From Pirellulaceae bacterium (GTDB lineage: Bacteria; Planctomycetota; Planctomycetia; Pirellulales; Pirellulaceae), in NCBI GenBank assembly GCA_020852965.1, contig JADYZV010000033.1, positions 1 through 36,678 on the forward strand: a stretch of DNA of 36,678 nt, in the 5' to 3' direction. Position 1 is the stretch's first letter. Each line of letters starts with the position of its first letter. Below the pieces are notes generated by a model. The model saw only the letters and a list, made by a program, of their open reading frames with translations, made no database searches and was not told the origin of the DNA. The position numbers and the translations under genes were made by a program. Positions 3,989-36,678 of this stretch are shown here, in pieces.

Positions 3989-4061
3989 CGCTTCAACCAT
4001 GTTCGATTTTGGGGTTGATCGTAGTGGACGAGGTTACGAGTCCCTGTAAAGCGATCGAATA

Positions 4062-4769
4062 TCATCGCCGGGGAGCTGACGGAGAGACGCGAATATCGTC
4101 CACTTCAATCCCCTTTTCACCACCCTTTTGCATCCACATTAGTTTGCGCTTCGCCGCGTTGAAACAAGGGCGGCTCAGCGTCTGAGTCCAAGTCCCGCCA
4201 TCCACGCTGATGTCAGCTTGCTCTCCTACAAACACTACCCGCACTTCGCGCCAATCGGTTCCACTGAGATCGAGCTTGTCTACCGGCAGGAATTCATTCA
4301 AGCGGTAGGCACCACTGACCTTATCGGCAGGGTGCCCCCCTTTCTGTCGCAGCGGATGATTCGCATCCTTCGAATGTGAATCGACTTCGAGTTGAACGCC
4401 ATCTCGCAGTAGCTTCACGCGCAGCATATGATCCACGCTGCCGAAGCCATCGTCACCATCGACAAAAAACCACATCCATCCGCCCGGCTCAAGCTGGCGA
4501 TAGCGGAACGAGATCGTCAGATCGGTTCCTTCGACAGGCAGGTAGACCATCGGCGGGTAGTTTCCAACGCCCGGCCCGTGCGTCCATAGCACCCCATCGC
4601 GCACTTCGGTGTGCTCGCTAGGAATGGGCGTGCTGAAGCGGCTTGCATCAAAATTCTCTCCGAAGGTTTCGTGAAACTGCGATGGCTCCGTTGCCTGTAG
4701 CACCGCCTGCGAAATGGGCAGTAGGCCGGCGGTCAACAATACGAGAGTTTGAAACGTGGTGCTGATCAT
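4062..4769 (-). CDS. Secreted jelly-roll (laminin-G/DUF1080-like) protein
   Basis: A 235-residue protein with a Sec-type signal peptide (MISTTFQTLVLLTAGLLPIS, cleavage near QATEP). The rest looks like a single beta-sandwich: alternating strands with FRYRQLEPGGWMWFFVDGDDGFGSVDHMLRVKL and an end IEVDDIRVSPS, the pattern seen in concanavalin-like domains that planctomycetes carry in secreted sugar-binding or DUF1080-type proteins. No catalytic motif is evident. It is convergent with tadC and lies about 100 bases downstream of the esterase gene on the same strand, so the two may be co-transcribed. The family assignment is by fold pattern only. Confidence 0.6.
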   Translation of the reverse strand: MISTTFQTLVLLTAGLLPISQAVLQATEPSQFHETFGENFDASRFSTPIPSEHTEVRDGVLWTHGPGVGNYPPMVYLPVEGTDLTISFRYRQLEPGGWMWFFVDGDDGFGSVDHMLRVKLLRDGVQLEVDSHSKDANHPLRQKGGHPADKVSGAYRLNEFLPVDKLDLSGTDWREVRVVFVGEQADISVDGGTWTQTLSRPCFNAAKRKLMWMQKGGEKGIEVDDIRVSPSAPRR

Positions 4770-4871
4770 TGGGCGGAATTCATCGATCGAATTAGTAACG
4801 GAGGTAGTATGGCAGGCAGTAAATCTGAAATCTTCAACTCCCTGTATTCGCTAAAGAACGCAGCCTTGGAC

Positions 4872-5849
4872 CTACTCGGCTTCCGGCTGAAGGTGCTTTT
4901 TCAGGAACTCGAGTTTGGCATCTTTGGGCTTCCCATCCCCGACCACCTGCAGCACATTCTCAACTCCAGCCGCATCCAATTTCTCCTTGATCATCGCACC
5001 GAACTCCGCATGATGGATTGAGAACATAACATTCGTCTCCTCAGGTAACGGAGTACCTCCCAGCGGTGTGGGGTAGTTCAAGTACGTGGGAGGATCGTCG
5101 CTGCTGACCAACTCCAAAGGACTGGCGTCTTTGACCTGCTCGGCGAACTTCGGCTGCTTCAGTTCGTCCAGCGATTGGGCACCAAACATCAGCGGGTAGC
5201 TGGCGTGAATTGCCTTCGGACCGCCAACTCGTGAAAGCACTAGCTCGGGATCGAACGTGGTCGGCCCCGCTTCGGGAACTAGACACGTAACCCGCGTTGA
5301 CATCCGCTCGATTGGATCTGCCGATGAAGGATCAGCCATGTCATCGCGATAGGCGATCCACATACAATTCACGGCTCCCGCTGAACCTCCCGTCAGGGCG
5401 AATCGGTCGGGATCGATATTCCATTCCTTGGCCTGGCTGCGGACGAACTGGACCGCGCGAGCGCAATCGTTCATCGGAGCCGGATAGGGTGCTGCCTGCT
5501 TGTCATTTTTTTTAAAAATCAACCGGTAATTGATCGAGACCACGCTGATTCCCATGTCGAGATAGGGCGAAGCGTCATAAGGAGATTTCTCCCCTCCCAT
5601 CCAGCCACCGCCATGAATGTGCATCAGCACGGGGGTAGCATTGCTCCTTTGAGCTTTGTAGAAGTCGAGTACATTGCGCTCGTAGGGCCCATACTGAACG
5701 TCTTTCAATGTTGGCGCAATCAACTCCGGCTTGGGAGGCTCGGCAGCCCTGCCGGTCATTGAAGGGAGCAAGAAGAGAGCCTGTATGGTCACGAGAGCTA
5801 CCGTGCTCCAAGAACCAAATTGGGGCGAGCGAAGAAGTGAAGCGCGCAT
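4872..5849 (-). CDS. Secreted alpha/beta-hydrolase (HGGG esterase/lipase type)
   Basis: A 325-residue protein with an N-terminal signal segment (STVALVTIQALFLLPS, then GRAAEPPKP). It carries the oxyanion motif HGGGWMGG at residues 79-86 and the nucleophile elbow GGSAG at 154-158, with Ser156 as likely catalytic serine; a C-terminal IHHAEFG may supply the histidine. This is the hormone-sensitive-lipase/BD-FAE-like arrangement that hydrolyses esters, including acetylated or feruloylated polysaccharides. The substrate cannot be read from sequence. A lectin-like secreted protein follows downstream, consistent with polysaccharide processing outside the cytoplasm. Confidence 0.8.
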   Translation of the reverse strand: MRASLLRSPQFGSWSTVALVTIQALFLLPSMTGRAAEPPKPELIAPTLKDVQYGPYERNVLDFYKAQRSNATPVLMHIHGGGWMGGEKSPYDASPYLDMGISVVSINYRLIFKKNDKQAAPYPAPMNDCARAVQFVRSQAKEWNIDPDRFALTGGSAGAVNCMWIAYRDDMADPSSADPIERMSTRVTCLVPEAGPTTFDPELVLSRVGGPKAIHASYPLMFGAQSLDELKQPKFAEQVKDASPLELVSSDDPPTYLNYPTPLGGTPLPEETNVMFSIHHAEFGAMIKEKLDAAGVENVLQVVGDGKPKDAKLEFLKKHLQPEAE

Positions 5850-5892
5850 AGATCAGTCTCTCTGCAAAATATATGGAAGTAACAGCGGTTCT

Positions 5893-5920
5893 AGTCTAAC
5901 AAGTCCCAGTCTAACAAGTC
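5893..5920. repeat. Tandem duplication of a 13-base word
   Basis: AGTCTAACAAGTC occurs at 5893-5905 and again at 5908-5920, a 15-base period, in the divergent spacer between the esterase (minus) and amidohydrolase (plus) genes. It may be a paired regulator site or a simple slip duplication. Confidence 0.6.
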
Positions 5921-6033
5921 ATTGTCGAGGAATGAACCTCTGGGAAAAGCCGTCGAATCTTGTTTCATCGGTGTCAAATCGTTTCGGAGAATTGAGCGAG
6001 GGGAATTCATGCTACAATTTCCTTGTATCAAAG

Positions 6034-6063
6034 TTTCACGCGATTAGCGACTATCGCGTGAAA
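6034..6063. promoter_or_regulatory. Perfect 11-bp inverted repeat, candidate operator
   Basis: TTTCACGCGAT at 6034-6044 is repeated as its exact reverse complement, ATCGCGTGAAA, at 6053-6063 around an 8-base spacer. It ends 24 bases before the amidohydrolase start at 6088, so it lies in the promoter or leader. With this spacing a dimeric regulator site or an mRNA hairpin are both possible; no T-run follows, so it is not an intrinsic terminator. Confidence 0.55.
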
Positions 6064-6087
6064 GCCTACGAATTAGGACGATAGAGA

Positions 6088-7116
6088 ATGTGTGATCAGA
6101 GGCTGTATGGCGGTCCCGACGGCAGAGACCGCTTAGTGACGCGACGCTCGTTTGTGGTGACTGGTAGCGTATTGGCAAGTAGTGCGTTGACAGCGACACA
6201 GGGGTGGTGCGGTCCTCAGGGGGATGAAGCGACCGAGCCGGTTGGCGCCATTCCCATCATCGACACTCACATCCACTTGTTTGATGCGAAACGACCGCAA
6301 GGAGCTCCCTATGCTGGCCCAGGTGGCGATTCCCCCCATGTGTCGCTACCACCTCGGTATCGCCGTTTGGCAGAGCCGTTGGGTATCGTGGGGGCGATCA
6401 AAGTCGAAGCCAGCCCGTGGATCGAGGACAATCTGTGGGCGCTACAAGTTGCCCAGCAGGATACGATGATCGTGGGCGTTATCGGCAACCTACAGCCGGA
6501 CAAACCCGAGTTTCCCGAGTACCTCGATCGCTTCCGCAAGAACAGTCTGTTTCGCGGCATTCGCTACGGGAATCTGTGGGGATATAGTCTCAGCCAACAA
6601 GTCGAAAATCCCGTGTTTATCGACGGCATGAAGCGATTGGCCGCAGCCGACCTTGTCTTGGACTCGGCCAATCCCGATCTTAAGTTGCTGCAAGCCATCG
6701 TGCGGCTGAGCGATCGAGTTCCTGAGCTGCGCATCATCATCGACCACTTGCCCGCCATGGAGCCCGCTAAGAGCGAACGCGCTGAGTACGAAAAACTGTT
6801 GGCCGAACTGGAGCAACGCAGCGGCGTTTATATGAAACTGTCGTCGGTCATACATCGCGTGGCGGGAGCGGTCTCCACTGAGCTCGGTGCCTATCGAGAT
6901 CGCATCGATAGCTTGATGGATGTCTTTGGCGAGGACCGAGTGATCTTTGGCAGCGACTGGCCCAACAGCGACGGCGTCGCCTCGCTAGATTCGATCGTTA
7001 GGCTGGCGCGCGAGTACCTAGCAACTCAACCGCTCCGTGTCGCCGAAAAAATCCTCTGGCGCAATTCGCTTGCCACCTATCGCTGGACGCCGCGCGCGGA
7101 AAACCAACCGAGTTAG
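6088..7116 (+). CDS. Tat-exported amidohydrolase (amidohydrolase-2 family)
   Basis: A 342-residue metal-dependent TIM-barrel hydrolase. A twin-arginine motif TRRSFVV (Arg19-Arg20) followed by a hydrophobic stretch and an Ala-rich region indicates Tat export. The mature part opens with IIDTHIHLFD, placing the metal-binding HxH at His61 and His63. A later IIIDHLPA supplies another ligand region, and FGSDWP near residue 290 carries the conserved catalytic Asp. This matches the amidohydrolase-2/LigY/lactonase-like group; the substrate (often a lactone or aromatic acid) is unknown. AGGA at 6075-6078 is a plausible ribosome site. An inverted repeat sits just upstream. Confidence 0.82.
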   Translation: MCDQRLYGGPDGRDRLVTRRSFVVTGSVLASSALTATQGWCGPQGDEATEPVGAIPIIDTHIHLFDAKRPQGAPYAGPGGDSPHVSLPPRYRRLAEPLGIVGAIKVEASPWIEDNLWALQVAQQDTMIVGVIGNLQPDKPEFPEYLDRFRKNSLFRGIRYGNLWGYSLSQQVENPVFIDGMKRLAAADLVLDSANPDLKLLQAIVRLSDRVPELRIIIDHLPAMEPAKSERAEYEKLLAELEQRSGVYMKLSSVIHRVAGAVSTELGAYRDRIDSLMDVFGEDRVIFGSDWPNSDGVASLDSIVRLAREYLATQPLRVAEKILWRNSLATYRWTPRAENQPS

Positions 7117-9255: not shown

Positions 9256-9603
9256 ATGTCCACTTACAATCTTCTGACCGACGAACAAATCGAGGCCTCT
9301 CTCTGCGGGCAACTGGAGGCCGAGCGGCTCCGTCGCAATATCACGCAGACGGAGCTAGCGCGCCAAGCGGGCGTTTCCGTTCGAACGATTCGACGAATGG
9401 AGAAGGGAGAAGGTGTCTCGCTGGCGACCTTTATCCGCACTATGAAAGCACTGAATCTAGAAGATCGTTTGGAGACGCTGTTCCCAGACCAGTCCATTCA
9501 GCCAATCGAACGTGTCCGCAAAACGATGCAAGTTCGCGAGCGGGCAAGCGGCACTCGGAAATCAGGCAAGCCGACAGGCGATTGGCATTGGGGTGACGAA
9601 TGA
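9256..9603 (+). CDS. hipB: HipB-like XRE antitoxin
   Basis: A 115-residue DNA-binding protein with an XRE helix-turn-helix at about residues 18-65 (LEAERLRRNITQTELARQAGVSVRTIRRMEKGEG). The tail is basic and glycine-rich (RERASGTRKSGKPTGDWHWGDE) and could be the part that contacts the toxin. It is expected to repress its own promoter and neutralise the kinase encoded immediately downstream. Its stop overlaps the hipA start in an ATGA junction, indicating translational coupling. Confidence 0.88.
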   Translation: MSTYNLLTDEQIEASLCGQLEAERLRRNITQTELARQAGVSVRTIRRMEKGEGVSLATFIRTMKALNLEDRLETLFPDQSIQPIERVRKTMQVRERASGTRKSGKPTGDWHWGDE

Positions 9604-10901
9604 GCGATGCGCGGATCATCCTCTGGGGACGAGACATTGCGGCTATTAGTTGGATACAAGAACGCGGGTACGCTGTCTTTCAGTATGCCCCCGAGTTCGT
9701 CGGCAGCGGTATTGAAGTTGCTCCGATCATGATGCCAGTGCGCGATGGGACTTATCAATTCCCCTCGCTCGCCAAGGAAACTTTCAAGGGACTGCCGGGA
9801 CTATTGGCCGATTCGCTCCCCGACAAATTCGGAAACGCGCTTATCGACGCTTGGCTCGCGCGCGAGGGTCGCGCGTCCCAGTCGTTCAATCCAGTGGAGC
9901 GGCTGTGTTATATCGGCAAACGCGGAATGGGTGCGTTGGAATTCAAACCTACAATTTTGGGCGCTCCCGATTCCGTTCGGGCCGTTGACATCGATGCTTT
10001 GGTCAGATTGGCAAATGATGTAGTTCAAGACCGAGCGACTCTAGGGGGAACACTCACAGGCGAGGATGAAAATCTTGCCATTCAAGACATATTGCGTGTG
10101 GGGACATCGGCCGGTGGCGCGCGAGCCAAAGCCGTCTTGTCCTGGAACGAAGCCACAGGCGAATTCCGCTCCGGACAATTGCCTGGCGAGCAAGGCTTTA
10201 CACAGTGGTTGGTCAAGTTCGACGGTGTTTTCGGCAACAAAGACAAAGAGCTTGCTGATCCGCAGGGATACGGGCTGATCGAGTACGCCTACTACAGCAT
10301 GGCCATCGAAGCGGGCTTGACCATGTCGCGCTGCCGATTGCATCGCGAACAGGGGCGTGCTCACTTCATGACACAGCGTTTTGACCGAACAGCCGATGGA
10401 AAGAAGCTGCACATGCAATCGCTTGGGGCGATGATGCACTTCGATTTCAACCAACCGGCAGCTTATTCCTACGAGCAGGCTCTGCAAGCATGTTTGTTAT
10501 TGGGTCTACCCATGCAAGACCGCGAACAACTATATCGGCGAGCCGTATTCAATGTGATCGCACGCAATCAGGACGATCACGTCAAAAACATAGCCTTTCT
10601 CATGGACCGCAGCGGAATCTGGCGACTTGCGCCAGCATTCGATATTGCCTACGCCTACAATCCAGGTGGCACCTGGACCGGCGTGCATCAAATGAGCATC
10701 GACGGCAAACGCGACAACTTTTCAAAGGAGAACCTCGTAGCACTCGCAGCGGTTGGCGGGTTAAAAAAACGCAAAGCGATCGAGATAGCCCAAGAAGTAA
10801 ATCAAGCGGTAGCCAACTGGCCACAACACGCCGCTGCCGCCGGTATCGACCCCCAGCGTTCAGCCGCCATTGCTCGTTCCTTTCGCAATGCAATCTTGTA
10901 G
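9600..10901 (+). CDS. hipA: HipA-like serine/threonine kinase toxin
   Basis: A 433-residue HipA kinase. The N-terminal domain (about 1-115) carries the typical LPGLLADSLPDKFGNALIDAWL and FNPVERLCYIGKRGMGALEF. A phosphate-loop region GTSAGGARAKAVL lies near 168-180. The catalytic loop NQDDHVKN is at 323-330, with Asp326 aligning to the E. coli HipA catalytic Asp, and the metal-binding APAFDI follows near 344-349. E. coli HipA phosphorylates glutamyl-tRNA synthetase and causes dormancy; the target here is unknown. All key motifs look intact, so the toxin is probably active. It starts inside the hipB stop codon. Confidence 0.9.
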   Translation: MSDARIILWGRDIAAISWIQERGYAVFQYAPEFVGSGIEVAPIMMPVRDGTYQFPSLAKETFKGLPGLLADSLPDKFGNALIDAWLAREGRASQSFNPVERLCYIGKRGMGALEFKPTILGAPDSVRAVDIDALVRLANDVVQDRATLGGTLTGEDENLAIQDILRVGTSAGGARAKAVLSWNEATGEFRSGQLPGEQGFTQWLVKFDGVFGNKDKELADPQGYGLIEYAYYSMAIEAGLTMSRCRLHREQGRAHFMTQRFDRTADGKKLHMQSLGAMMHFDFNQPAAYSYEQALQACLLLGLPMQDREQLYRRAVFNVIARNQDDHVKNIAFLMDRSGIWRLAPAFDIAYAYNPGGTWTGVHQMSIDGKRDNFSKENLVALAAVGGLKKRKAIEIAQEVNQAVANWPQHAAAAGIDPQRSAAIARSFRNAIL

Positions 10902-22078: not shown

Positions 22079-25000
22079 CTAGTGGCCCGTTCGCTTGAGG
22101 ATTTGGACAAGGCGCAGGTAACGAGGGTCGGTCGCGAGCTTTGGATCTGCAGCAACTACTTTTCTCAAGCAACTATCCAAGTCCAGTGGTGCCAGAGAAT
22201 TGTCACCAACAACGGCATCTAGCAATTCCAACGTGTCTGCTGGAAAGACGGTTGGGAGTTGCGACTCGTCCAGTATACGAACGACAAGATCAGCGTGTTC
22301 AATAGGAATTAGCCATGCACGGACCGTAGACAACGCTTGCGGAAATTGTTTGCGGGCGGCAATACAGAGTCTAGCGAGTGAATCTGCTAGTCCTTCAGAA
22401 ATCAAGTTGACCGATTTCGGCCAAAGTTCCTTCCAGAAAGGCAGAATGCGGTTAGTCCAGTAGTCTTCACGTTGATCACCGGCACCCTCTAGTAACTGCG
22501 TCATTCCATTTGCTGCTGCCAGCAGACCTTCGGGAGGTAAGGCGAGTAGTGCGTTGGCGAACTTACTTTTAAGGGCATCCAGGGGATGCTCTATACCTGC
22601 GAGTACTAGCAACGTGGCGTATTGAACGGCGAAATCTCCTAGTTCGGCATAGTGTTTAGAAGTTTCAAGGAACTCTTCCATGAATTTGTCTAAAAGCGGA
22701 CGATATAGTCGCGGTGTCCACAGGTACCCTTCCCACACAGCTTGGGCTTCTGTGCCCTTGCTGGTCCAATCGAATAATGGCAACAAGTAAGTCTCAGTCC
22801 ACTGCCGGTCGACTCGGTAAAGTGGGATCAAGTTTGCCGCCAAGATGACGCGTCCATGGCAAAACTTATCGACTGATGAGTCGCAAAGCTGTGTAAAGAT
22901 TTGCTCGACGTCTTCAGGAAGACCGTCATTGTCTTTGGGCACCCGGTTGAACCAAACGTTTACTACTGACTGAGCTACGTGACCAACAGGGTGATTGATT
23001 GCAGCACTAACGGCGTCGGTGGAACAGCTACCTTCGGAGTCCACCAGTTCAAGAATTCGCTTACATAGACCAAAAAACTCAGTTTGATTCTGGTCCAGCC
23101 CCTTCGACGCTTCTTCTAGCCACCAAGCAACGTTATGCAACAGTTCTTTCAGAATGTGGCCAGGCATCGAATTAACGAGCCCCGCAAAGTATCTCCACGA
23201 ATTCTTTTGTTGACGTTTCTCGCTCCAAACCTGTAACGCTCCCCTCCAGAACGGTATCGGCCAGTTGCCTTCGCGTGCCAAATCACACAGGGCGAATCCG
23301 CTATTTAGAAGATGATACCGACACCGATTCAGCCATTGCGTGTTGTCGTTTTGTGCTGAAGCTGAAGAATCAGTGTTTCTTAACCATTCGGCCAACTCCG
23401 AACGCTTCTTCGGGATCGGAACGACTTCGGTTGATTCTTCGTCGTCGGGAAAGCCGGTGCCGCTCATCCAGTGCGAAAACTCTTCTTTCTGATTCTTCGA
23501 AAGTTTCCAATCGGGATTAGCGATTCGGAGAGATTCCAATTTCTCCGCCGCCTCCTTACCCATGTTGACTTCACCCTTTTCAAGCTTGCTTAGTCTCAAC
23601 CATATGGCGCGATCCGATAGGCTCTTCCACTCTTGCTCCTCGCGATCAGCAGGATACATTTTCCGGGGTGGTCCATTAAGGATTGCTTCTTCGATTGAAC
23701 TTCTTTCACCGGGCGTGAGTTGATGTCCTTGAGTTTCCAACAGACGCATCGCCTCACGCTTAGTTTCGGGTGCCCATAGCCACCAAGCGTCATCATTCAA
23801 TAACCAAGCTGTCCACTGTGCGGATGGAATGAAACCGCCATGACAAGCCGCAAAGAGTGCCAAACGTTTGAAAGTCGGGAAGGGGATTGGAAACCAACTT
23901 GTCGCAACTGATGTCGCTTGTACAGGATCTAATTCATTGAGTGCCTTCCAGGAATCACGAACGAGTTCAATCAGCACTAACCAATCGCGATGGCCTCTAT
24001 TCTGCACATGATCATCTATAGAGGGCATGTGCCAACTAGATCGATCATTCAAACTATCTGCAAGTCCCAGCTCCTCGTGAACATCGAGCGAGTCTCGCAA
24101 AAGCTGCTGAAAGTCATTCAGCAGCAGCGGCAACGCGTTTTGCCATTTTGCTGATTTTTCCATCTCACGAAAAAACTGCAGTGGGTGATCGGCTGCCAGG
24201 GTAACTTCGCAATCGACCAAATGATCGAGTTTGTCGGGTGACTTGTCGCCTATGTTGTATTCCCACCAACGGAATGGTGCCTTCATAGTGACTCGTACTG
24301 ACAGGATTTGACGGAGATTAAGCCGCACTGTGGCGGTCAAACCATCACGATTAAGGCAATTTCGCCATCGATACAAATCAAACCTATTGGATTGCGATTT
24401 TACGCGACCAGCAAGTACGAGTCTCCACAAGGTTCGCATAGCGGTACGGGGAATCGCATCTTCACTCTTGGAGCGTATTTGCTCTAGTTCGTGAGTCTTG
24501 TTCTCTGATTCAAGTTCGTTCAATCGATCCAATTGGTTCTCGATCAGTCTGGTCAGATGGGAATTGAGTTGACCTCCGTGCTGGACCATCCAAAGCACAA
24601 GCTTTGGGTTATCGAGGTGGCGTAACAGCCACCGACCTATGTGCAACATCACATTGTCTAAAAGTGCAGGAGAGTTCCACCCCACTAAATTCATCCATGG
24701 CGCGTGCGTATACGGTGCTGGACGCCGCACTAAACTGAATTGGAGCTTATCGTCGGATTGAGTGTGCGGGATCACATTGAAGCGGGACAGATCTTGATGC
24801 TGAAATCGTTCGGATGCGAAGGCCTCTAGCCAATCAAGTGGTGGTACTGGCTCAAAATCGGCAAATCGCTTTGCAGGTTCTCCCGTCGCGTCTGACAATG
24901 CCCAGATCATTCGGCCAACATAGTCATCCTCAGGCGTGCTTTTTGCTGGTCGAGACATTGCGTTGTCGACAACGATTCTTTCCTTTCCGAGTATTCCGTC

Positions 25001-25885
25001 ACGATATATGTCAGCCCATTCTCTTAAGGTATTGTGGAGCGCGGAATGGTCGTGCGTGCCTGAGGGCACTTCGTAGAGAATTGGGGTAACACCCTTGGCT
25101 TCCCATTCGATTGATTTACGGTGCGCTTGGTTTGGTGCACAGTCTCCGAATGCGTAAGCAGCTGGAGTGGATTCTCCGAGCATTCGGTCCGCGGCCAAAG
25201 CATCCATCATGTATCGAAGCACTGGGTCGTTGATGCTATACCCAACGAAGCAAACGACATAGTCCCGGAAAAGCTCGGAAACGAATCGAGCGGCCCAACG
25301 CTCAGTAAGATATGCATTCCCAAAGTCGCCGCTGGTGATTACCAATCGGTTAAGCTCACCCTTCTCCGGTAATTTCGGCAGTAGTCCATGAAGATATACC
25401 AAGCCGTTCCACCGACTCCTTTTGGGGATCGGGAGCAGAGGGGCGCAAAACGTGTAGACCGGGAGTTTGTCTCGCTTGATTATATGCTCAAAAATGCGGT
25501 CAAAGTTTGTGGTTACGAGTCGAATAGCTCCGTCTCTGCATTGCGACAAGTTAAGCAATGACTCATGCGTTTGGGTCGCTAGTTTTCTCCGAAGCTTCGG
25601 CTTGAGAGAAGAGTGTAGAGCGGTGCGAACCGCAACTCTTTGTCCAGGGTACCGCCGCTCCAAGAGATCTAACGTTGCGTCGAAATGTGAACGGTCGTAC
25701 GCCTCCTGTTCGATTTCTTCGAGACTGGTGCCCAAACGACTATAAATCGCATCGACTAATCCCTGGAATCCGGGCAGTCCTGCTGGGTATGAGATTCCTG
25801 CACCGCAGAAAAACACGACCCGACCTTCCTCATGTGCCTGAAGCAAGTATTCTGGAATATCTGGGCCACGTGCTACTAACTGCAT
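22079..25885 (-). CDS. SIR2-domain NADase-type defence protein (DSR-like), 1268 aa
   Basis: The N-terminal about 270 residues form a SIR2-like Rossmann domain: FFCGAGISYPAGLPGF (GAGIS at 28-32), VTTNFDR (Asn127), YLHG (His166) and GYSINDPVLRYMMDAL (215-230). Asn and His in these positions are the catalytic pair in SIR2 NADases of antiphage systems (ThsA, DSR2). The remaining about 1000 residues are helix- and tryptophan-rich, without transmembrane segments or other recognised domains, as in the sensor half of DSR proteins. The expected role is phage-triggered NAD+ depletion. It stands alone: no partner gene is adjacent on its strand. A perfect inverted repeat (25926-25946) lies about 40 bases upstream of the start. 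Codons look intact throughout. Confidence 0.8.
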   Translation of the reverse strand: MQLVARGPDIPEYLLQAHEEGRVVFFCGAGISYPAGLPGFQGLVDAIYSRLGTSLEEIEQEAYDRSHFDATLDLLERRYPGQRVAVRTALHSSLKPKLRRKLATQTHESLLNLSQCRDGAIRLVTTNFDRIFEHIIKRDKLPVYTFCAPLLPIPKRSRWNGLVYLHGLLPKLPEKGELNRLVITSGDFGNAYLTERWAARFVSELFRDYVVCFVGYSINDPVLRYMMDALAADRMLGESTPAAYAFGDCAPNQAHRKSIEWEAKGVTPILYEVPSGTHDHSALHNTLREWADIYRDGILGKERIVVDNAMSRPAKSTPEDDYVGRMIWALSDATGEPAKRFADFEPVPPLDWLEAFASERFQHQDLSRFNVIPHTQSDDKLQFSLVRRPAPYTHAPWMNLVGWNSPALLDNVMLHIGRWLLRHLDNPKLVLWMVQHGGQLNSHLTRLIENQLDRLNELESENKTHELEQIRSKSEDAIPRTAMRTLWRLVLAGRVKSQSNRFDLYRWRNCLNRDGLTATVRLNLRQILSVRVTMKAPFRWWEYNIGDKSPDKLDHLVDCEVTLAADHPLQFFREMEKSAKWQNALPLLLNDFQQLLRDSLDVHEELGLADSLNDRSSWHMPSIDDHVQNRGHRDWLVLIELVRDSWKALNELDPVQATSVATSWFPIPFPTFKRLALFAACHGGFIPSAQWTAWLLNDDAWWLWAPETKREAMRLLETQGHQLTPGERSSIEEAILNGPPRKMYPADREEQEWKSLSDRAIWLRLSKLEKGEVNMGKEAAEKLESLRIANPDWKLSKNQKEEFSHWMSGTGFPDDEESTEVVPIPKKRSELAEWLRNTDSSASAQNDNTQWLNRCRYHLLNSGFALCDLAREGNWPIPFWRGALQVWSEKRQQKNSWRYFAGLVNSMPGHILKELLHNVAWWLEEASKGLDQNQTEFFGLCKRILELVDSEGSCSTDAVSAAINHPVGHVAQSVVNVWFNRVPKDNDGLPEDVEQIFTQLCDSSVDKFCHGRVILAANLIPLYRVDRQWTETYLLPLFDWTSKGTEAQAVWEGYLWTPRLYRPLLDKFMEEFLETSKHYAELGDFAVQYATLLVLAGIEHPLDALKSKFANALLALPPEGLLAAANGMTQLLEGAGDQREDYWTNRILPFWKELWPKSVNLISEGLADSLARLCIAARKQFPQALSTVRAWLIPIEHADLVVRILDESQLPTVFPADTLELLDAVVGDNSLAPLDLDSCLRKVVAADPKLATDPRYLRLVQILKRTGH

Positions 25886-29647: not shown

Positions 29648-30547
29648 TTAGCTCAATTGCACGTTATTCTCGATTCGCAGCCGCACTTCATCGAGTGCTT
29701 GTTGCAGTGCTTGCTCAAGCTCGTAGTAGTTAGCCTTCTTATCGGATGCTACGGTGATCTTCCAACCATCCTCGGTGACAAAGGTCTGCTTTACTCCCCG
29801 AGCGCGAGGGGATGCTTTGCCTTTTCGCTCCCGGACCTTCTTCTGCACGGTTGCGATCGACAGATTTTCTTCACCGGATGCAATCGCAGACTGTTGTTGC
29901 TCGGAGCTGAGTTTCGAAAGCTCGTACGCAGCGCGGGCAGACAACTCGCCATCTTCAACTTTGGTTTGAATCTCAGCGGGTAGGGAGAGTAACGCCATCG
30001 AGCGAGCGATCTTTCCTGGGCTGACACGAATTGCCGACGAAAGCTCCTTCGCTGTCCAGCCATTGAGTTTGATGAGCTGATCAAACGCTTTGGCTTCTTC
30101 GATTGGCTTTAGATCCTCTCGCAAGAGGTTCTCAATGAGCTGCTGCTCTAGGATGTCGGTCTTTGTGAGCTCTCCTTCCTGGAAGTAGCACTCGGCGGTA
30201 GGCAGCCCAGCGTGTTTGATGGCGCGGAACCTACGCTCGCCGGAGATGATGATCCATTTGCCGTGGTTTTCAGACCACCGAACGCGAATAGGGTGAAACT
30301 GGCCCTTCTCACGAATGCTTTGGGCAAGATGCTCGATTTCTTGCTCATCGAATTCCGTGCGAGGCTGCTCTGGATCCGGAATCAGGTTATCAACCGCCAG
30401 CGTGCCAAAGGTTCTGAGCGCTCGTCGGCCAACGTCTTTCGCATTTGGCACTGGGCTCAACTGCGGCCGAGAGTCATTCGCTCGCACGCCCATGGATTCA
30501 TCGAGCTTGCCTTTGATCTTCTCAAGTACGTTTCTGGTGCTAGTCAT
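29648..30547 (-). CDS. parB: ParB partition protein (CTPase/DNA-binding)
   Basis: A 299-residue ParB. The N-terminal ParB/Srx fold contains IPDPEQPRTEFDEQEIEHLAQSI, GQFHPIRV and the CTP-binding arginine motif GERRFRA (103-109), then ENLLREDLKPIEEAKAF. A helix-turn-helix (TAKELSSAIRVSPGKIARSM) lies at about 165-185. The C-terminal region replaces the usual dimerisation domain with a basic linker and a helical end. It would load on a centromere and interact with ParA. It starts 6 bases after the parA stop. The strand order ParA-ParB and the palindromic repeats upstream of parA fit a low-copy replicon partition operon. Confidence 0.92.
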   Translation of the reverse strand: MTSTRNVLEKIKGKLDESMGVRANDSRPQLSPVPNAKDVGRRALRTFGTLAVDNLIPDPEQPRTEFDEQEIEHLAQSIREKGQFHPIRVRWSENHGKWIIISGERRFRAIKHAGLPTAECYFQEGELTKTDILEQQLIENLLREDLKPIEEAKAFDQLIKLNGWTAKELSSAIRVSPGKIARSMALLSLPAEIQTKVEDGELSARAAYELSKLSSEQQQSAIASGEENLSIATVQKKVRERKGKASPRARGVKQTFVTEDGWKITVASDKKANYYELEQALQQALDEVRLRIENNVQLS

Positions 30548-30553
30548 AAACCT

Positions 30554-31366
30554 CTATGCAAATGTCCGTCGTTTGTTCTTCTGACTGATTCTGGCAACCA
30601 GCTCTTCAACCAAAGTTCTCATCGTTGCAGCCGCTGCGGATTTCGCGCTGTAGAATTCGACCGGCTGCCGACAAGCCAAAGCGACTTTGAATGCCGATGC
30701 CTCTGGCACAATCGTATCAAGCACCATCTCGCGGTAGAGTTCTCGCAACCGCTCTTCGTAGGAGCGATGAACCAAGAGGCGCTTGTCATACCTTGTTACT
30801 AGGTGGCCAAGGCGGCGAAGCGTTGGATTTAGCTGCCGAGCGTTATCAATCGCCTGATGCACGGCCCGAAGCCCTTGAGTGCCGAAGTCTTCTGGCGGAA
30901 CGGGAATAACGACGTAGTGCGCTGCGATCATCGAGTTCCAGCTGCACTGATACAGATTCGGTGGGCAATCAATCAAGACAACATCGTACGCGTCTTGCTG
31001 CTCCAGAAACTCGCGCACTACAAACTGCGTCATCCCGGCAGTTGCCGGTTTCGGTGCGTTGTAGTCGGCGAGGTGTTGATTCGCGGGAACGATGGAGATG
31101 TTCTCAAATCCAGTTGGGCGAATCAGTAGTTGTTGATCGAGAAAGAAGCAGGACTCATCGAACAAGGCGGCAAGCGTTTCACTTGCAGGCAGGTTCTCCA
31201 CAAAATCCGATCCGAGAAATCCCTGACTGAGTGAGCCTTGCGGATCGGCATCAACGAGAAGAACGGAGTAGCCGTGCGCTGCGAACGCTCCTGCTAAGTG
31301 GAAGCAAGTAGAGCTTTTCCCGCAGCCTCCTTTTTGATTGATGAGACAAAGAGTGATCGCTGCCAT
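30554..31366 (-). CDS. parA: ParA partition ATPase
   Basis: A 270-residue ParA/MinD-family ATPase of the short (type Ib-like) form without an N-terminal DNA-binding extension. The deviant Walker A motif QKGGCGKSS begins at residue 11, VDADPQGSLSQGFL follows at 38-51, and the Walker B region is YDVVLIDCPPN. It would form ATP-dependent patterns on the nucleoid and move ParB-bound DNA. The first palindromic repeat copy (31396-31416) lies 30 bases upstream of its start, consistent with autoregulation by ParB or RepA. It is followed at once by parB. Confidence 0.93.
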   Translation of the reverse strand: MAAITLCLINQKGGCGKSSTCFHLAGAFAAHGYSVLLVDADPQGSLSQGFLGSDFVENLPASETLAALFDESCFFLDQQLLIRPTGFENISIVPANQHLADYNAPKPATAGMTQFVVREFLEQQDAYDVVLIDCPPNLYQCSWNSMIAAHYVVIPVPPEDFGTQGLRAVHQAIDNARQLNPTLRRLGHLVTRYDKRLLVHRSYEERLRELYREMVLDTIVPEASAFKVALACRQPVEFYSAKSAAAATMRTLVEELVARISQKNKRRTFA

Positions 31367-31395: not shown

Positions 31396-31416
31396 CCGAT
31401 TTCCAATGGAAATTCC
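31396..31416. repeat. Palindromic repeat copy 1 (upstream of parA)
   Basis: Core ATTTCC-AAT-GGAAAT within a 21-base identical unit (CCG before, TCC after). It is followed by a partly conserved second block (GTAATCACT and ATAGGATTGAGGG). Position just upstream of parA suggests an operator or centromere site. Confidence 0.8.
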
Positions 31417-31597: not shown

Positions 31598-31728
31598 CCG
31601 ATTTCCAATGGAAATTCCGCGCAAACACTCGTTATCACTAGCGAATCGTCCAAAATAGGCTGAGGGGGTCTATCCGCATTTCCAATTTCTCTGACAGTTA
31701 CCAGCCAGCATGTACAAGTCGTTTGCGT
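31598..31728. repeat. Composite repeat copy 2 (about 131 bp)
   Basis: This starts with the full palindromic unit (31598-31618). It continues with TCGTTATCACTA, GCGAATCG, CAAAATAGGCTGAGGGGGTC, a half-site ATTTCCAAT (31678-31686), and CCAGCCAGCATGTAC followed by GTCGTTTGCGT. It is nearly identical to the copy at 32965-33096, with scattered changes and one 1-base indel. The high conservation of non-coding sequence indicates a functional cis element. Confidence 0.85.
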
Positions 31729-31838: not shown

Positions 31839-32507
31839 TCAGCCGGTCCAGGTCCAGGGCGTAACGTCGCGGAATGGCGGATTGCATGGGAAGGGGGACC
31901 ACCGGGGCGAAAATCGGCAGGGTGCAGTACCTGTTCCGAGGACTACCAACCCACCTTGAACGCTAACTGGTGTTTTCCAAGTTAATTTCAGCTCGCCCCC
32001 ACTAAAGAACGTGGGGGGAACTTGGACTTCGACACTCATCCCTGCAGCCGCGACAATCGCAGCGTTGCTGCAACTCTCCCGTAGCTGTCCTGAAAAAGCG
32101 TCCCCTAGGGCCTCCTTACAGGCGGTTAATTCTTCGGAGAACTCATTCAGATAGTGCGGGCTAACTTTAGCGACGGACTCTGCGATGAGAGCAGCGAGAT
32201 CGCACGCTTTTACTAGACGAACCCAATGTGGGGCCATCTGGAGCCGCCTCAACCATTCTTCGTTAGTTTCGTCCGGCTGCCTTGATAGGCACATGACGGC
32301 CTGGGCTACCTCGGGTCCGAAAGCACGGTCGAGCGCATCAAAGCCCACGTCGATGCCTACGACAGCGGCTTGGATAAATGCCACTATCACGGCGTTCTCC
32401 CGAACTTCTTCCGATGCAAACCTTCTTACCAACCCAGCTACTGCATTGACGGTAGCAATCGGCGAACCGTGAAACGCATAGCGATTCCGGAATTCATCTA
32501 CTCCCAT
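31839..32507 (-). CDS. HD-domain-like protein lacking the HD pair
   Basis: A 222-residue protein with a good ribosome site (GGAGAAGG) before ATG 32507. Residues about 20-115 follow the helical pattern of the HD hydrolase domain of RelA/SpoT-type enzymes: the family's AALLHDVVEDT is here VAFIQAAVVGI (His-Asp replaced by Gln46-Ala47). FGPEVAQAV follows at 63-71, and LVKACDLAAL (Asp103) aligns with the family's KLADRL. Without the HD pair it should not bind catalytic metal, so it is probably a pseudoenzyme or binding protein. The last about 60 residues look unrelated and possibly beta-rich. It sits between the two pairs of palindromic repeats of the replicon. Confidence 0.5.
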   Translation of the reverse strand: MGVDEFRNRYAFHGSPIATVNAVAGLVRRFASEEVRENAVIVAFIQAAVVGIDVGFDALDRAFGPEVAQAVMCLSRQPDETNEEWLRRLQMAPHWVRLVKACDLAALIAESVAKVSPHYLNEFSEELTACKEALGDAFSGQLRESCSNAAIVAAAGMSVEVQVPPTFFSGGELKLTWKTPVSVQGGLVVLGTGTAPCRFSPRWSPFPCNPPFRDVTPWTWTG

Positions 32508-32964: not shown

Positions 32965-33096
32965 CCGATTTCCAATGGAAATTCCGTGCAAGCATTCGTT
33001 ATCACTAACGAATCGCCCAAAATAGGCTGAGGGGGTCTATCCCGATTTCCAATACCTCTCGTCGTTTGCCAGCCAGCATGTACGTGTCGTTTGCGT
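32965..33096. repeat. Composite repeat copy 3 (about 132 bp)
   Basis: Near-identical direct repeat of 31598-31728: full palindromic unit at 32965-32985, TCGTTATCACTAACGAATCG, CAAAATAGGCTGAGGGGGTC, half-site CCGATTTCCAAT at 33042-33053, and CCAGCCAGCATGTAC ending GTCGTTTGCGT. Here TCGTTA...TAACGA forms a small extra palindrome. Confidence 0.85.
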
Positions 33097-33135
33097 CGCA
33101 CTTTTTCGATGATTCGCGGAAGTCGGTTTCCAAAC

Positions 33136-33212
33136 CCGATTTCCAATGGAAATTCCTTGCAAGCGTCGGAAACAATTGAGGAATCGCCGGAAATAGTCTC
33201 AGGGGGTCTATT
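33136..33212. repeat. Composite repeat copy 4, upstream of repA
   Basis: The palindromic unit is intact at 33136-33156. The second block is more diverged (GAGGAATCGCCGGAAATAG, then CTCAGGGGGTCTATT). It lies about 200 bases before repA, so it may also serve as a repA operator. Confidence 0.8.
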
Positions 33213-33409: not shown

Positions 33410-34684
33410 ATGGCAGCTAAGAGCGCTCAGGCAAAACGCACTACCGGAGTCGGTCAACTATCCTTGGTTGAGCACGCCTTGTGTCCGCTCGATTCTCGCA
33501 GTTCGTTAGTCGATAACTTGGTGTTTGACGCCGAGTACCACTACTACGCCGATTCTGATTCGAAGCGCTCAGCCCGCGCTCGAGTGTTCTGTCCACTTGG
33601 ACTTTCCGCCGCGGATGAACTCTACCTCTGGGGACTACTCGCCCTCACCCTACTCCAGCCAAACCCCGAACCGGAACTCTTTGCCACTCCTCACTGGTGC
33701 CTGCGCCAGCTTGGTGTCATCAACCAAATGAACAAGCGTGGCGGTCGTCAGTACAAGCAGTTTGCCGAAGCCATTCGCAGACTCTCCGCTGTAACGTACA
33801 TGAATGATGGCTTCTACGATCCGATTCGCGAAGAGCATCGCCGGGTCAGCTTCCGCTTCTTTAGCTACAGTCTTCCGGTAGACCTGGAATCAAGTCGCAG
33901 TTGGCGAATTGCCTGGGACCCGATCTTCTTCGAAATGGTCCAAGCGGCTGCTGGCCACTTCCGATTCGATTTGGCGGTCTATCGCGAACTGGATGCTGCC
34001 AGCAGACGGCTGTTTCTGTTCGTCAGTAAAGTGCTCCCTCGCCGCTCGCACTTAAACGCCCTTCGGCTTGAGCATGTCGCAGTGAACATTCTCGGGTTTA
34101 GCCCATCGGTTGCGACTCGCGATATGAAGGTAAAGGTCTCGAAGTGCCTTCAGAACCTGATCGATCTTCATGTGCTAAGCGATGCCGAGGTATTTAAGAC
34201 CGCACCTGGCCGCTACTTCGTTCGTCTATCTCGTGGCCCCTACTTCGCTCAGAAATCCCAACGAGCCTACATCGCAAGCGCTGAAGACTCGCCGCTGTTC
34301 GAAACCCTGCAGCAGATTGGTTTTGAAGAAGCTGCCGCTGCGAGACTGATCGCCAAGTTCCCTACCCGACTTCTTTCTGAATGGTCTGACATTACCCAAG
34401 CTGCCATCGAGCGTTTTGGAGTCAGCTACTTCCACAAGAGTCCAATGGCGTATCTTGTGGACTCAGTGACCAAAGCTTCCACTGGAAACCGCACTGCGCC
34501 AGATTGGTGGCAAGACCTGAAGCGCGCTGAGCGGCAAGAAATGCAGATGTCGGTAGAAAGCCAACGAGTGTTCACGCAGATTCGTGCGGAACTCTTTGGC
34601 GATGCAACCGATGTCGGTGAATCGGCAAAGCGCGGCAACACTCAACTTGCAAGCGTAAGCCAGATTCTGCGTAACGGTTTGTAA
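33410..34684 (+). CDS. repA: Plasmid-type replication initiator protein
   Basis: A 424-residue protein resembling replication initiator A proteins with winged-helix domains. Family-like parts are LGLSAADELYLWGLLALTLLQP, TPHWCLRQLG, KQFAEAIRRLSAVTYMNDGFYDP, HRRVSFRFFSYSLPVDLESSRSWRIAWDPIFFEMVQ and LYRELDAASRRLFLFVSKVLPRRS. The initiator would bind iterons and open the origin together with DnaA. Three iteron-like repeats and a perfect DnaA box lie 200-320 bases downstream of the stop, and parAB is encoded nearby on the opposite strand. Start ATG 33410 has only a weak ribosome site. The gene looks intact. Confidence 0.8.
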   Translation: MAAKSAQAKRTTGVGQLSLVEHALCPLDSRSSLVDNLVFDAEYHYYADSDSKRSARARVFCPLGLSAADELYLWGLLALTLLQPNPEPELFATPHWCLRQLGVINQMNKRGGRQYKQFAEAIRRLSAVTYMNDGFYDPIREEHRRVSFRFFSYSLPVDLESSRSWRIAWDPIFFEMVQAAAGHFRFDLAVYRELDAASRRLFLFVSKVLPRRSHLNALRLEHVAVNILGFSPSVATRDMKVKVSKCLQNLIDLHVLSDAEVFKTAPGRYFVRLSRGPYFAQKSQRAYIASAEDSPLFETLQQIGFEEAAAARLIAKFPTRLLSEWSDITQAAIERFGVSYFHKSPMAYLVDSVTKASTGNRTAPDWWQDLKRAERQEMQMSVESQRVFTQIRAELFGDATDVGESAKRGNTQLASVSQILRNGL

Positions 34685-34775
34685 TCTGCTTGCTTACGCT
34701 CAAAGCCGCCGCATACCTTTTCAAATGCGCCATTCTCAAATCCAGAATCAATCCGTCAAAGCAAGTTCCTTTGTC

Positions 34776-34807
34776 TGTACAAGTACTCTTGTACAAGTAC
34801 TTTGTAC
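34776..34807. repeat. TGTACAAGTACT direct and inverted repeats
   Basis: TGTACAAGTACT occurs at 34776-34787 and 34790-34801 (14-base period) followed by TTTGTAC. The words TTGTACAA and AGTACT are themselves palindromic. The repeat lies between repA and the iterons, so it may be part of the origin or a site of replication control. Confidence 0.6.
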
Positions 34808-34896
34808 GCGATCGGCGGGCCATCCAAAATCATCGAAAAAGTCAAGCGATCTTGGCCTGTTGCAGGAGGAGCGACAACACAATGTTTTTCAAAAAT

Positions 34897-35003
34897 GCGA
34901 CGACACCGACACGCCTATGGCTGTGAATAGCGACGGCACCGACACGCATCCTGCACTTTTTTCTGCGATGCCACCGACACCAGCAGCAAGAAAGTTATCC
35001 ACA
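34897..35003. other. oriV: Candidate iteron origin (oriV): three iterons and a DnaA box
   Basis: A 16-base iteron GCGAYGNCACCGACAC is present at 34897-34912, 34930-34945 and 34965-34980, spacing 33 and 35 bases (about three helical turns, same face). A partial fourth GCGACAACAC is at 34871. A perfect DnaA box TTATCCACA follows at 34995-35003, then AT-richer sequence to about 35085 suited to strand opening. Its place directly downstream of the initiator gene is that of iteron plasmid origins. Confidence 0.7.
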
Positions 35004-35181
35004 GTATTTCTGATGTGCATCTTGCTGAAACTTTGCCTCTCAAATCTCTTCAAACGCTGTCGAATCATTACATTTTGATTCACTTTCAGTTCCCATCTTG
35101 CCTGCCCAAAACCAATCCATAGAGGCCACCGCAAACACCTCTTTTTGGCTTGATTGACGCGCAAAGTGGCGTGAAAAGTCG

Positions 35182-35406
35182 TTGCGGGATCGTTTCAATT
35201 TGATAACGACTTTGCTAGCGGTTGGGATCGGATCCCTTACCGCGGCTGTTGCTTACGTCAACGCGTTGCTGCGAGCGAGCTGCAAATTCAGTTCGCCAGT
35301 GGTGGCTGCTGACAAACTTTGGCAGACAGTTGCGCCCGCTAAACCTGGACTCACCATCCAGGCTAAGGGAGCGGGGTTAACCATCCGCTACGCAACTGGC
35401 CCGTAG
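35182..35406 (+). CDS. Possible small membrane protein, 74 aa
   Basis: A TTG-started frame gives MRDRFNLITTLLAVGIGSLT followed by AVAYVNALL, an N-terminal membrane helix or signal anchor, and a soluble tail ending GLTIRYATGP. No ribosome site or family is evident. It is the only sensible frame between the origin and the structured RNA region, but could be chance. Confidence 0.3.
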   Translation: MRDRFNLITTLLAVGIGSLTAAVAYVNALLRASCKFSSPVVAADKLWQTVAPAKPGLTIQAKGAGLTIRYATGP

Positions 35407-35593
35407 AGCTGGATGCATCGAGAGGTGCTTGTCCAGATCGACGGAGGCTTTGTCGAGTAATCCGCAGTTAAGCAGTTGGTATTTGTATCATCAACTGACC
35501 TTTCCTCCGAGTAATCCGACAATTCGATCCGATGCTGTAGCGGTTTATCGCACAAGGCTCTCACAAGCCTTGGGCGGGGGCGATGCGGAAGAA

Positions 35594-36315
35594 CCTTAGG
35601 AGAATTTCTCTTCTAAGGCTGTCATCAACTGAAACAGGTGAGGTGTCTCGATGATGCGTAATCCTGTGCAAGGGGCTCGGAGTCTCGGACTTCGTTCAAC
35701 TTGCCCGGCGTGGGGAGTTTCGAGTCTGGCAACAGACCGAACCGGAGCGGACTGGCTCCGGAGTTCGCGGGCAAATCCCGCGACTGCGAATAGCTCAACC
35801 ATGAGAGGCCCGCGAGGGCTTGCCGGTGAATCTTGCAGAAGACGGTGCCAAATAGCGAAAGACCTTGGTTGTTGGGTAAGGGGATGCTTCCACGTTCGGT
35901 CCCCAGAAATGCTTGTCAGCGCCGCTAGCGGCGCGTGTGAGCGAAACTATGCCGGTTCTGGTGAACCGGACATACGACCAACGTCCCTCTCGTTCAATCG
36001 GGATAGCGACGTGAGCTGCGAGATAGAAGTGATGACTAACGCAGGATGCTCTGCGGCAGCCGGTTGGTTACCGGTGCCTGGGAGAAGTCACCCAGGTGAT
36101 TCAAACGCCGTAGAGCGGGAGTGTGGTCTGAGTAGAAAGTCTGGGAGTGATCAAGTGGGAACTTGATTGCAAGCCGAGCGATGTTCCCTGCAAGGCAGTG
36201 GGGACTCGTTGATGTCGTACCAGGTGGTGCTGGCGACACATGTCACGACGAAAGGACCGACGGGCACTATGAGCTGTTGGAGTATTGTGCGGTCGATTCC
36301 CGTTTTCGGGAATCG
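35594..36315 (+). ncRNA. Large structured RNA region, HEARO/omega-RNA-like (IscB type), no nuclease gene
   Basis: No protein family is visible, but stable hairpins follow one another: CCTTAG/CTAAGG (35594-35618), CCGGAGC/GCTCCGG (35742-35761), TCGCGGG/CCCGCGA (35765-35783), CCGGTTC-tggt-GAACCGG (35952-35969), CCGGT/ACCGG (36060-36074), CCTGGG/CCCAGG (36077-36096), ATCAAGT-ggga-ACTTGAT (36150-36167) and CGATTCCCG-tttt-CGGGAATCG (36294-36315). The segment 36001-36045 (GGATAGCGACGTGAGCTGCG and AACGCAGG), with the hairpin around GAGAAGTCA, is like the HEARO motif I recall from IscB/IsrB loci. Group II intron domain I is the main alternative; no domain V or reverse transcriptase is present. Strand is inferred from GNRA/UUUU-type loops and the motif. 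Confidence 0.45.
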
Positions 36316-36678
36316 GCTGTCCTTGGTAGGGCGCGAGGCGGTTACACAAGGCTAGTGCGGGAGCACTGGTGTTCTGTGACGGCGAATCAACGGCGTACGC
36401 CCGGGATCTATTTCGACTCCGGCGTTGCCGTCGACTGGTTCTTTGCGTGAGTGGTTCTATGGATTGGCGAAGCACTATTTAAGAATGTGGTGTTTCGCCG
36501 AATCTGAGTTTTTCACCGCGTTTTCTCAGTGGCTTTGAACTGCACGCACTTATGTGACCGAGACTGAAAAGACTGCCAATTTCAGCGGGGGAGACACTGC
36601 CAGGCGCGTAGGGAGGAATTCCTACTTCAGTTCTTACTTTTCTTGCTACTTGACCAAAAAATGAAATCTAATTTGTCT
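36316..36678. other. End of window, no gene recognised
   Basis: Continuation of the structured region to about 36440 (for example AGTGC-GGGA-GCACT at 36354-36367), then ordinary AT-balanced sequence to the end. No open frame with a family match. If an IscB-type gene belonged to the RNA it would be expected here or just beyond, but none is visible. Confidence 0.4.

Follow-up and report, generated by a model that had tools for sequence, protein, structure and literature searches.

The subject of this work is a predicted replication and partition region on a 36,678-nucleotide contig of a Pirellulaceae bacterium (JADYZV010000033.1, hereafter the window), which makes up all of contig C33, one of the 199 contigs of a genome of 8,366,829 bases. 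The window encodes PSCyt1/PSCyt2/PSD1 and DUF1501 proteins, consistent with a planctomycete origin, and carries, in this order, parB, parA, a small gene (orf222), a gene for a predicted replication initiator (repA), three direct repeats followed by a DnaA box, a structured RNA, and the end of an insertion sequence (IS). An initial annotation had described the initiator gene, the repeats and the box, with parAB nearby, as a complete and self-sufficient iteron-type replicon. Two further components were absent from that annotation and found on follow-up, namely a set of parS-like sites and the RNA itself, a putative circularly permuted group II RNA.

The three repeats are exact plus-strand copies of GCGAYGNCACCGACAC at 34897–34912, 34930–34945 and 34965–34980, with start-to-start spacings of 33 and then 35 bases, just as initially described. 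The pattern occurs three times in the whole genome, each time at this origin, and the reversed pattern, used as a control, does not occur. When up to three mismatches are allowed, the window holds 10 matches, as compared to a mean of 2.70 and a maximum of 9 in 100 shuffles. The DnaA box (34995–35003, plus strand) is the sole exact copy of TTATCCACA in the window; it lies 14 bases beyond the third iteron, and not 15 as first stated. The DNA that follows (35004–35110) had been called AT-rich and is a possible unwinding region, with 59.8% A+T as against 46.6% for the window.

Searches with single RepA sequences gave matches in 2 of 294 genomes of the phylum, the window's own genome counted, and, in a collection of genome contigs, at three loci from two metagenome-assembled genomes (MAGs). 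A five-row Rep profile matched 72 of 397 genomes of the class; among the weakest are distant kin of the RPA type, and at least 11 of them were also matched by PF10134. From the roughly 100 matches listed by this profile, 40 loci were fetched. In a quick tree of 40 Reps, 27 of them, the window's among them, form one group, with an SH-like approximate likelihood ratio (SH-aLRT) value of 92, which is below the 95 mark. These 27 and L004, which is too partial for the tree, are the 28 subfamily loci referred to below, and the remaining 13 Reps of the tree and L088 are the 14 other family loci; L004 and L088 were placed by evidence other than the Rep tree. The underlying alignment (A2) was made without L004 and L005 (partial), L088 and L089 (distant or RPA type) and L033 (RPA type). 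In the MAG Dive100_bin4.32, repA is split over two contigs (L005, 10600–10733, and L004, 1–139), where the breaks show a short repeat and inverted ends resembling an IS insertion; the part on L005 is also frame-changed.

In L003 the repeats lie at 1949, 1982 and 2017 with a TTATCCACA box at 2047, and in L004 at 965, 998 and 1033 with a TTATCCACA box at 1062, so that the 33/35 spacing and the position of the box are common to three species even though the letters of the repeats have changed. We then scanned the 350 bases past each rep stop codon for three 16-mers spaced 31–36 bases apart, with 15 dinucleotide shuffles per locus. Triples scoring at least 38 were present in 26 of the 28 loci of the subfamily, as compared with 4 of the 14 other family loci; the top shuffle score in any locus was 30. 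The triple of L065 is located further downstream, and scored 39 when the scan was widened to 500 bases. Across the subfamily the letters vary from species to species and the spacing stays constant, as would be expected if initiator and sites co-evolve. The box is more variable: 12 of the 28 subfamily loci, window included, have TTATNCACA after the third repeat, and 10 of these read TTATCCACA. At the other loci, help from DnaA may be replaced or weaker. Homologous loci without repeats and box had been named as grounds for rejecting the origin, and it is the repeats, rather than the box, that have stood up to this comparison. At the level of sequence, the iteron-type origin next to the initiator gene is confirmed in the window and generalises to the subfamily. 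Two further features were seen in this region. A TGTACAAGTACT repeat or palindrome lies between the repA stop codon and the iterons (34776–34807), with a related motif in L003, L004, L058 and some other loci, and in seven loci (L062, L070, L072, L073, L084, L090 and L096) the interval between origin and RNA holds, in antisense orientation, an RNase_T-type exonuclease gene, an assignment based on a Pfam search with the C61 copy only.

The initiator gene, repA (33410–34684, plus strand), is an intact open reading frame (ORF) of 424 amino acids just upstream of the repeats, in agreement with the initial annotation. The profile searches proposed there gave nothing: the window's RepA matches 0 Pfam families up to an E-value of 10, including Rep3_N (PF01051), RPA (PF10134) and TrfA (PF07042), and it has no NCBIfam, PHROG or PDB sequence match. 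A reasonably confident AlphaFold2 (AF2) model built from 40 aligned members (predicted local distance difference test, pLDDT, 81.0; predicted template-modelling score, pTM, 0.77) shows the tandem winged-helix fold of RctB, RepE and other Rep_3-like proteins, in a loose superposition. The best Foldseek match is RctB domains 2–3 (PDB 5tbf, 5ubf; E 1.6e-8 over 290 alignment columns), with a TM-score on the target of 0.59, a root-mean-square deviation (rmsd) of 6.8 and 16% identity. RepE comes second (E 1.4e-3, rmsd 9.0), leaving RctB as the sole match at E ≤0.001. A weaker model from five rows (pLDDT 61.8), since superseded, likewise gave a list headed by RctB and RepE.

RctB, the initiator of Vibrio chromosome 2, is an iteron-binding protein; its open frame in the Vibrio record is 660 residues, so RepA is the shorter of the two. 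When the distant member L082 was searched against 72,556 plasmid records, the one match was an ORF with 25% identity (E 9e-3), which we take to be Vibrio RctB and on which the family profile gives no score. L082 also reached 0.0013 with the RPA profile, below the cut-off of that profile. The family profile itself matches the RPA-type Reps of genome G105 (6e-29) and of plasmid pK2D_1 (5e-21), as well as the Reps of contigs C61 (2e-13) and C29 (3e-13) of the window's own genome; kinship to the TrfA of pPNAP05 was considered and found unsupported. Neither the window's RepA nor its 88%-identical relative has a match in the 72,556 plasmid records, and no match to RepA was found in viral contigs. 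To judge from the model and these profile matches, RepA probably works like the iteron initiators and is distantly kin to them, lying outside the boundaries of PF01051, PF10134 and PF07042. It shares with the RepE/Rep_3 plasmids (F, pPS10 type) the combination of an initiator gene, direct repeats and a DnaA box, but differs from them in lacking a Rep3_N match and in having three widely spaced repeats; the RepE/Rep_3 plasmids have tighter arrays of longer repeats. To the planctomycete RPA plasmids, such as pK2D_1, the kinship is a distant one through the family profile, the window's RepA itself having no PF10134 match; the Isosphaeraceae plasmids are examples of this type (PMC5352709).

In connection with partition, the annotated parAB genes were readily recognised. 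ParA (30554–31366, minus strand) matches Pfam AAA_31 (7.4e-33) and also CbiA, and ParB (29648–30547, minus strand) matches ParB_N (6.7e-19) and HTH_ParB (8.5e-18), with nucleoid_noc (under its cut-off) and parB_part as its best NCBIfam matches. As in the relatives, parA is divergent from repA. Between the two genes lie four identical palindromes, ATTTCC-AAT-GGAAAT, at 31399–31413, 31601–31615, 32968–32982 and 33139–33153, which flank orf222 (31839–32507, minus strand; a match to PHROG 990, metal-dependent phosphohydrolase, at 4.1e-7 over 59 residues only); the 8.37 Mb genome has no ATTTCCNNNGGAAAT site besides these four. Using a pattern with ATTNCN arms and a three-base centre, at most 2.5 kb from the start of parA, we found such a palindrome in 28 of 33 parA-bearing loci, that is, in 26 of 26 from the subfamily and on C29 and C61, which have another rep; it was not found by parA in L031, L033, L036, L085 and L091. 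The chance expectation is about 0.005 per locus by an arithmetic estimate. The commonest form in the relatives is ATTGCC-N3-GGCAAT, so that the window and L058 carry the same change on both arms. A Walker-type ParA, a ParB with a helix-turn-helix (HTH) domain and repeated palindromic putative parS sites are together what a type I ParABS system comprises, and there is good support for predicting an iteron origin accompanied by ParABS.

Directly downstream of the origin, within the 1.3 kb past it, lies a structured RNA with a core of about 870 nt (35399–36265, plus strand, as are all its parts), delimited from a consensus fold of 20 sequences. Its first domain is a hairpin that resembles group II domain 5 (D5) and contains the AGC triad (35406–35439); 9 of the 14 D5 pairs are changed on both sides. 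On its 3' side is a D6-like element of uncertain extent, reaching to about 35463 or to 35531, as two D6 pairings are possible. The group II model RF00029 scores 36.3 bits here (35404–35533, E 5.2e-5), below its 40-bit cut-off, and is over the cut-off in L003. The RNAalifold consensus then shows a large multi-branched domain (35584–36043) and two smaller ones (36048–36116 and 36125–36258), D1, D2 and D3 by order, before a helix joins the base of D5 (35399–35404) to the 3' part of the RNA (36260–36265) and closes the core. A long hairpin 3' of the core (36338–36383; 18 pairs, 16 of them changed on both sides) is D4-like by position. The order is thus D5-D6-D1-D2-D3-D4, as judged from position and double changes, with D1 to D4 named by order only.

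The consensus fold of the 20 full-length RNAs has 236 pairs, of which 181 show a both-side change in at least one sequence (no shuffle control), and 94.3% of cells are paired. This alignment (A5) holds 20 of 22 listed sequences, L079 and L084 being left out; the list excluded the split or truncated L004, L066, L068, L069, L071 and L072 and all loci with another rep. For D5-D6 we aligned 23 segments (22 distinct), in which 97.5% of cells pair and 9 of the 20 pairs are changed on both sides, all nine within D5. None of 500 shuffles reached the covariation score, and versions slid along the sequence collapsed. One of five measures, the further pair types, was not above the shuffles (223 of 500 reached it), and in the short D6 hairpin no pair was changed on both sides. 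This alignment (A3) contains 23 of 28 listed sites, without L062, L074 and L030 (one-base insert), L067 (insert in D6) and L036 (degenerate); the list was drawn up without L004, L066 and L071 (split D5), L079 (near-duplicate), and L068 and L072 (truncated).

A sequence profile seeded with the window, L003 and L058 matches the RNA in all 28 subfamily loci, being cut by the contig end in L068 and L072, and in none of the 14 other family loci. Circularly permuted group II RNAs are known as RNAs of about 900 nt, ORF-free inside and often plasmid-borne, in which D5 and D6 come first, followed by a large multi-branched domain and smaller ones (PMC8637638). Roth et al. (2021; PMC8637638) noted that pPNAP05 has one close to its origin. 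By domain order and size, in both of which it is like the RNAs of Roth et al., the RNA described here appears to be a circularly permuted group II RNA, a putative ribozyme. Our profile (nhmmer) found no match in pTT8 or in 50,000 of the 58,808 bases of pPNAP05, so the assignment rests on architecture. Two differences from the published RNAs stand out, namely that the main text of PMC8637638 does not name Planctomycetes, and that the place beside the origin is fixed here across a whole replicon subfamily. Conservation and predicted fold indicate that one type of replicon carries a member of an orphan ribozyme class as a constant element of its backbone. In L004 (1363–3773), L066 and L071, the D5 hairpin of this RNA is itself interrupted, always at one position, by an ordinary group II intron with a reverse transcriptase; the enzymes of the latter two are 68% and 74% identical to that of L004.

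On the 3' side of the RNA and on the same strand, the relatives carry an ORF of about 240 amino acids, which we call the acpG-like gene. It was found in 24 of the 27 tree loci, the window being counted via contig C176, and in L004; it was not found in L067, nor in L068 and L072, both of which end within the RNA. The name refers to AcpG (TTHC007) of pTT8, which is of similar size and likewise encoded beside a permuted group II RNA; this gene was chosen for comparison by size and place, and hhalign gives the pair a probability of 1.9% (E 0.026). In the window, the end of a multicopy IS (36553–36678) cuts the contig, so that the acpG-like gene is separated from the RNA and lies on C176. The same IS sequence also begins at least seven other contigs. 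C176 starts (1–149) with the other IS end and then a 25-base copy of window positions 36528–36552, ahead of the acpG-like gene, and in L003, which is without the IS, the RNA, the acpG-like gene and similar following genes are found in one piece. DISARM-like genes (PLD, DUF1998-like and helicase, recognised by eye) come after the acpG-like gene on C176 (L026, 1037–7060), and the same genes, again by eye, are found past it in L003 (4355–10379) and L034 (11591–16995).

The RNA and the acpG-like gene also occur together near rep and par genes of other types, on C29 and C61 of this genome and in G105, and further in G266 and on contig C38 of G216, where rep-like ORFs were judged by their position beside parA/parB. 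On pK2D_1, a closed circular planctomycete plasmid, the profile match (4016–5051) lies between the annotated Replication initiator protein A (1–1461) and the acpG-like gene (5488–6189). Among nine scanned regions with an acpG-like gene and another or no rep, seven had an RNA match, and none was found in L035 and L037. Comparison with the genes of the window, together with visual inspection, revealed no rep in the fetched stretches of C152, G002, G270 and G242. The window's genome has two further parAB modules with another rep (L027, which is C29, and L030, which is C61) and a PF10134 gene (G000:C81:90346), and may hold four replicon modules. Outside the phylum, the cyanobacterial (Calothrix) plasmid AP018278.1 (L140) was seen to carry two segments resembling the permuted RNA and an acpG-like gene.

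Does this module belong to a plasmid? The initial annotation had stated self-sufficiency as a fact, which we cannot uphold. None of 17 contigs, the window included, showed the end overlap of a circle (in the window, the first 1500 and last 2000 bases have no 15-mer in common), no plasmid record matched RepA, and in three genomes that are each a single contig (6.5 to 8.9 Mb) the module lies within that contig. G610, the nearest relative (RepA 88% identical), is a single contig of 6.53 Mb; RepA, par, RNA and acpG-like gene are found there at 5.763 Mb, where GC is modestly reduced (0.47–0.52). G595 and G346 are likewise single contigs with rep, parA and acpG-like gene. The module can also sit in a chromosome, and given its location in these relatives it may be chromosomal here too. 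GC skew over 21 stretches of G610 gave no clear origin signal, and tRNA-bounded att sites were considered for the G610 stretch and rejected, since neither the tRNA-Pro nor the tRNA-Ser sequence recurs at a distance.

These observations would fit a chromosomal genomic island with inherited plasmid rep and par genes, its origin silent or rarely used, that is transmitted either together with the chromosome or through excision, and we hold this to be a real possibility, though less likely than not. The direct repeats about 46 kb apart (5.747 and 5.793 Mb) that surround the G610 module can be read in either direction: they would suit a circle integrated by a single crossover, but additional copies at 5.744 and 5.756 Mb mean that they may simply be a multicopy element. 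On the other hand, the subfamily has preserved its iterons, parS-like sites and rep, for which a silent origin would seem to have no need, and the closed plasmid pK2D_1 has a related set of RPA-type rep, permuted RNA and acpG-like gene. In our reading, the module is a plasmid-type element that also exists in integrated form, with the autonomous plasmid state plausible, though unproven.

A second alternative, that the repeats are an operator of RepA or partition sites and not an origin, we consider very unlikely. One inverted iteron-like site is indeed located upstream of repA (33084–33099), with identical letters in L058, as a promoter operator would show; as a candidate operator it was rejected, being common to the window and L058 only and near chance level by shuffles. 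The iteron triple, in contrast, lies downstream of repA beside the DnaA box and the AT-rich DNA, separate parS-like palindromes are present, and RepA resembles iteron initiators. Lastly, we give hardly any credence to the idea that the RNA is the decayed remnant of an ordinary group II intron, present by chance: D5 and D6 do match the ordinary model (in L003 above the cut-off, in the window below it), but D5 precedes the large multi-branched domain and is tied by a helix to the 3' end, the RNA is found at every subfamily locus, three quarters of its pairs carry double changes (no shuffle control), and a reverse transcriptase like that of L004 is absent from the window, L003 and L058 and seen only in L004, L066 and L071, as part of a second intron within D5.

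Taken together, it is very probable that the window holds the core for replication and partition of a planctomycete element of plasmid type and low copy number, followed downstream by a permuted group II RNA and the acpG-like gene, a kind of replicon present in many planctomycetes. Several points weigh against this, besides the absence of circular contigs and the chromosome-sized contigs of G610, G595 and G346. By sequence, RepA matches no initiator profile and no PDB chain, and its superpositions on RctB and RepE are loose; the AT-richness is weak, the DnaA box is not universal in the subfamily, and L066 has no iterons within 500 bases of its rep stop codon. The palindrome pattern was picked after examples had been seen, and since the subfamily loci are of common ancestry, they are 28 loci but not 28 independent events.

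From the sequences, spacings, conservation, covariation, synteny and fold similarity observed here, we infer how such an element might work in terms of binding, melting, copy control, partition and splicing. RepA, a tandem winged-helix protein of the RctB/RepE kind, would bind the three 16-bp iterons, which are about three helical turns apart, and together with DnaA on the adjacent box would melt the neighbouring AT-rich DNA and allow helicase loading. Bridging of iterons by RepA may restrain initiation. ParB would bind the four ATTTCC-N3-GGAAAT palindromes in the parA–repA interval, and ParA would move the copies apart. In this genome a later IS has cut the acpG-like gene off from the RNA. 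A bolder suggestion is that the RNA and the acpG-like gene are themselves a working part of the replicon, in which the ribozyme, with its transcription starting from the origin region, would make RNA circles or branched RNA governing initiation, priming, copy number or maintenance. This would explain why the RNA is found at every subfamily locus examined and recurs near other rep and par types, but we regard it as speculative and rather doubtful.

Elsewhere in the window, we observed a gene for the anti-phage sirtuin Dsr1 (22079–25885; NCBIfam NF041818, 1838.6 bits with a cut-off of 1400), and a gene for an HTH protein followed by one for a HipA-type protein (9256–10901).

Planctomycete model strains are without a replicative plasmid, and plasmid replication elements are only starting to emerge (PMC11958385). 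The present analysis provides a compact and defined rep-iteron-par module with dozens of natural variants available for testing. As the RNA is present at 28 of 28 subfamily loci and at 0 of 14 others with the same Rep family, the role of the permuted RNA becomes a matter for a clean deletion test. The larger point is that one replicon subfamily and a class of orphan ribozyme appear to be constant partners.

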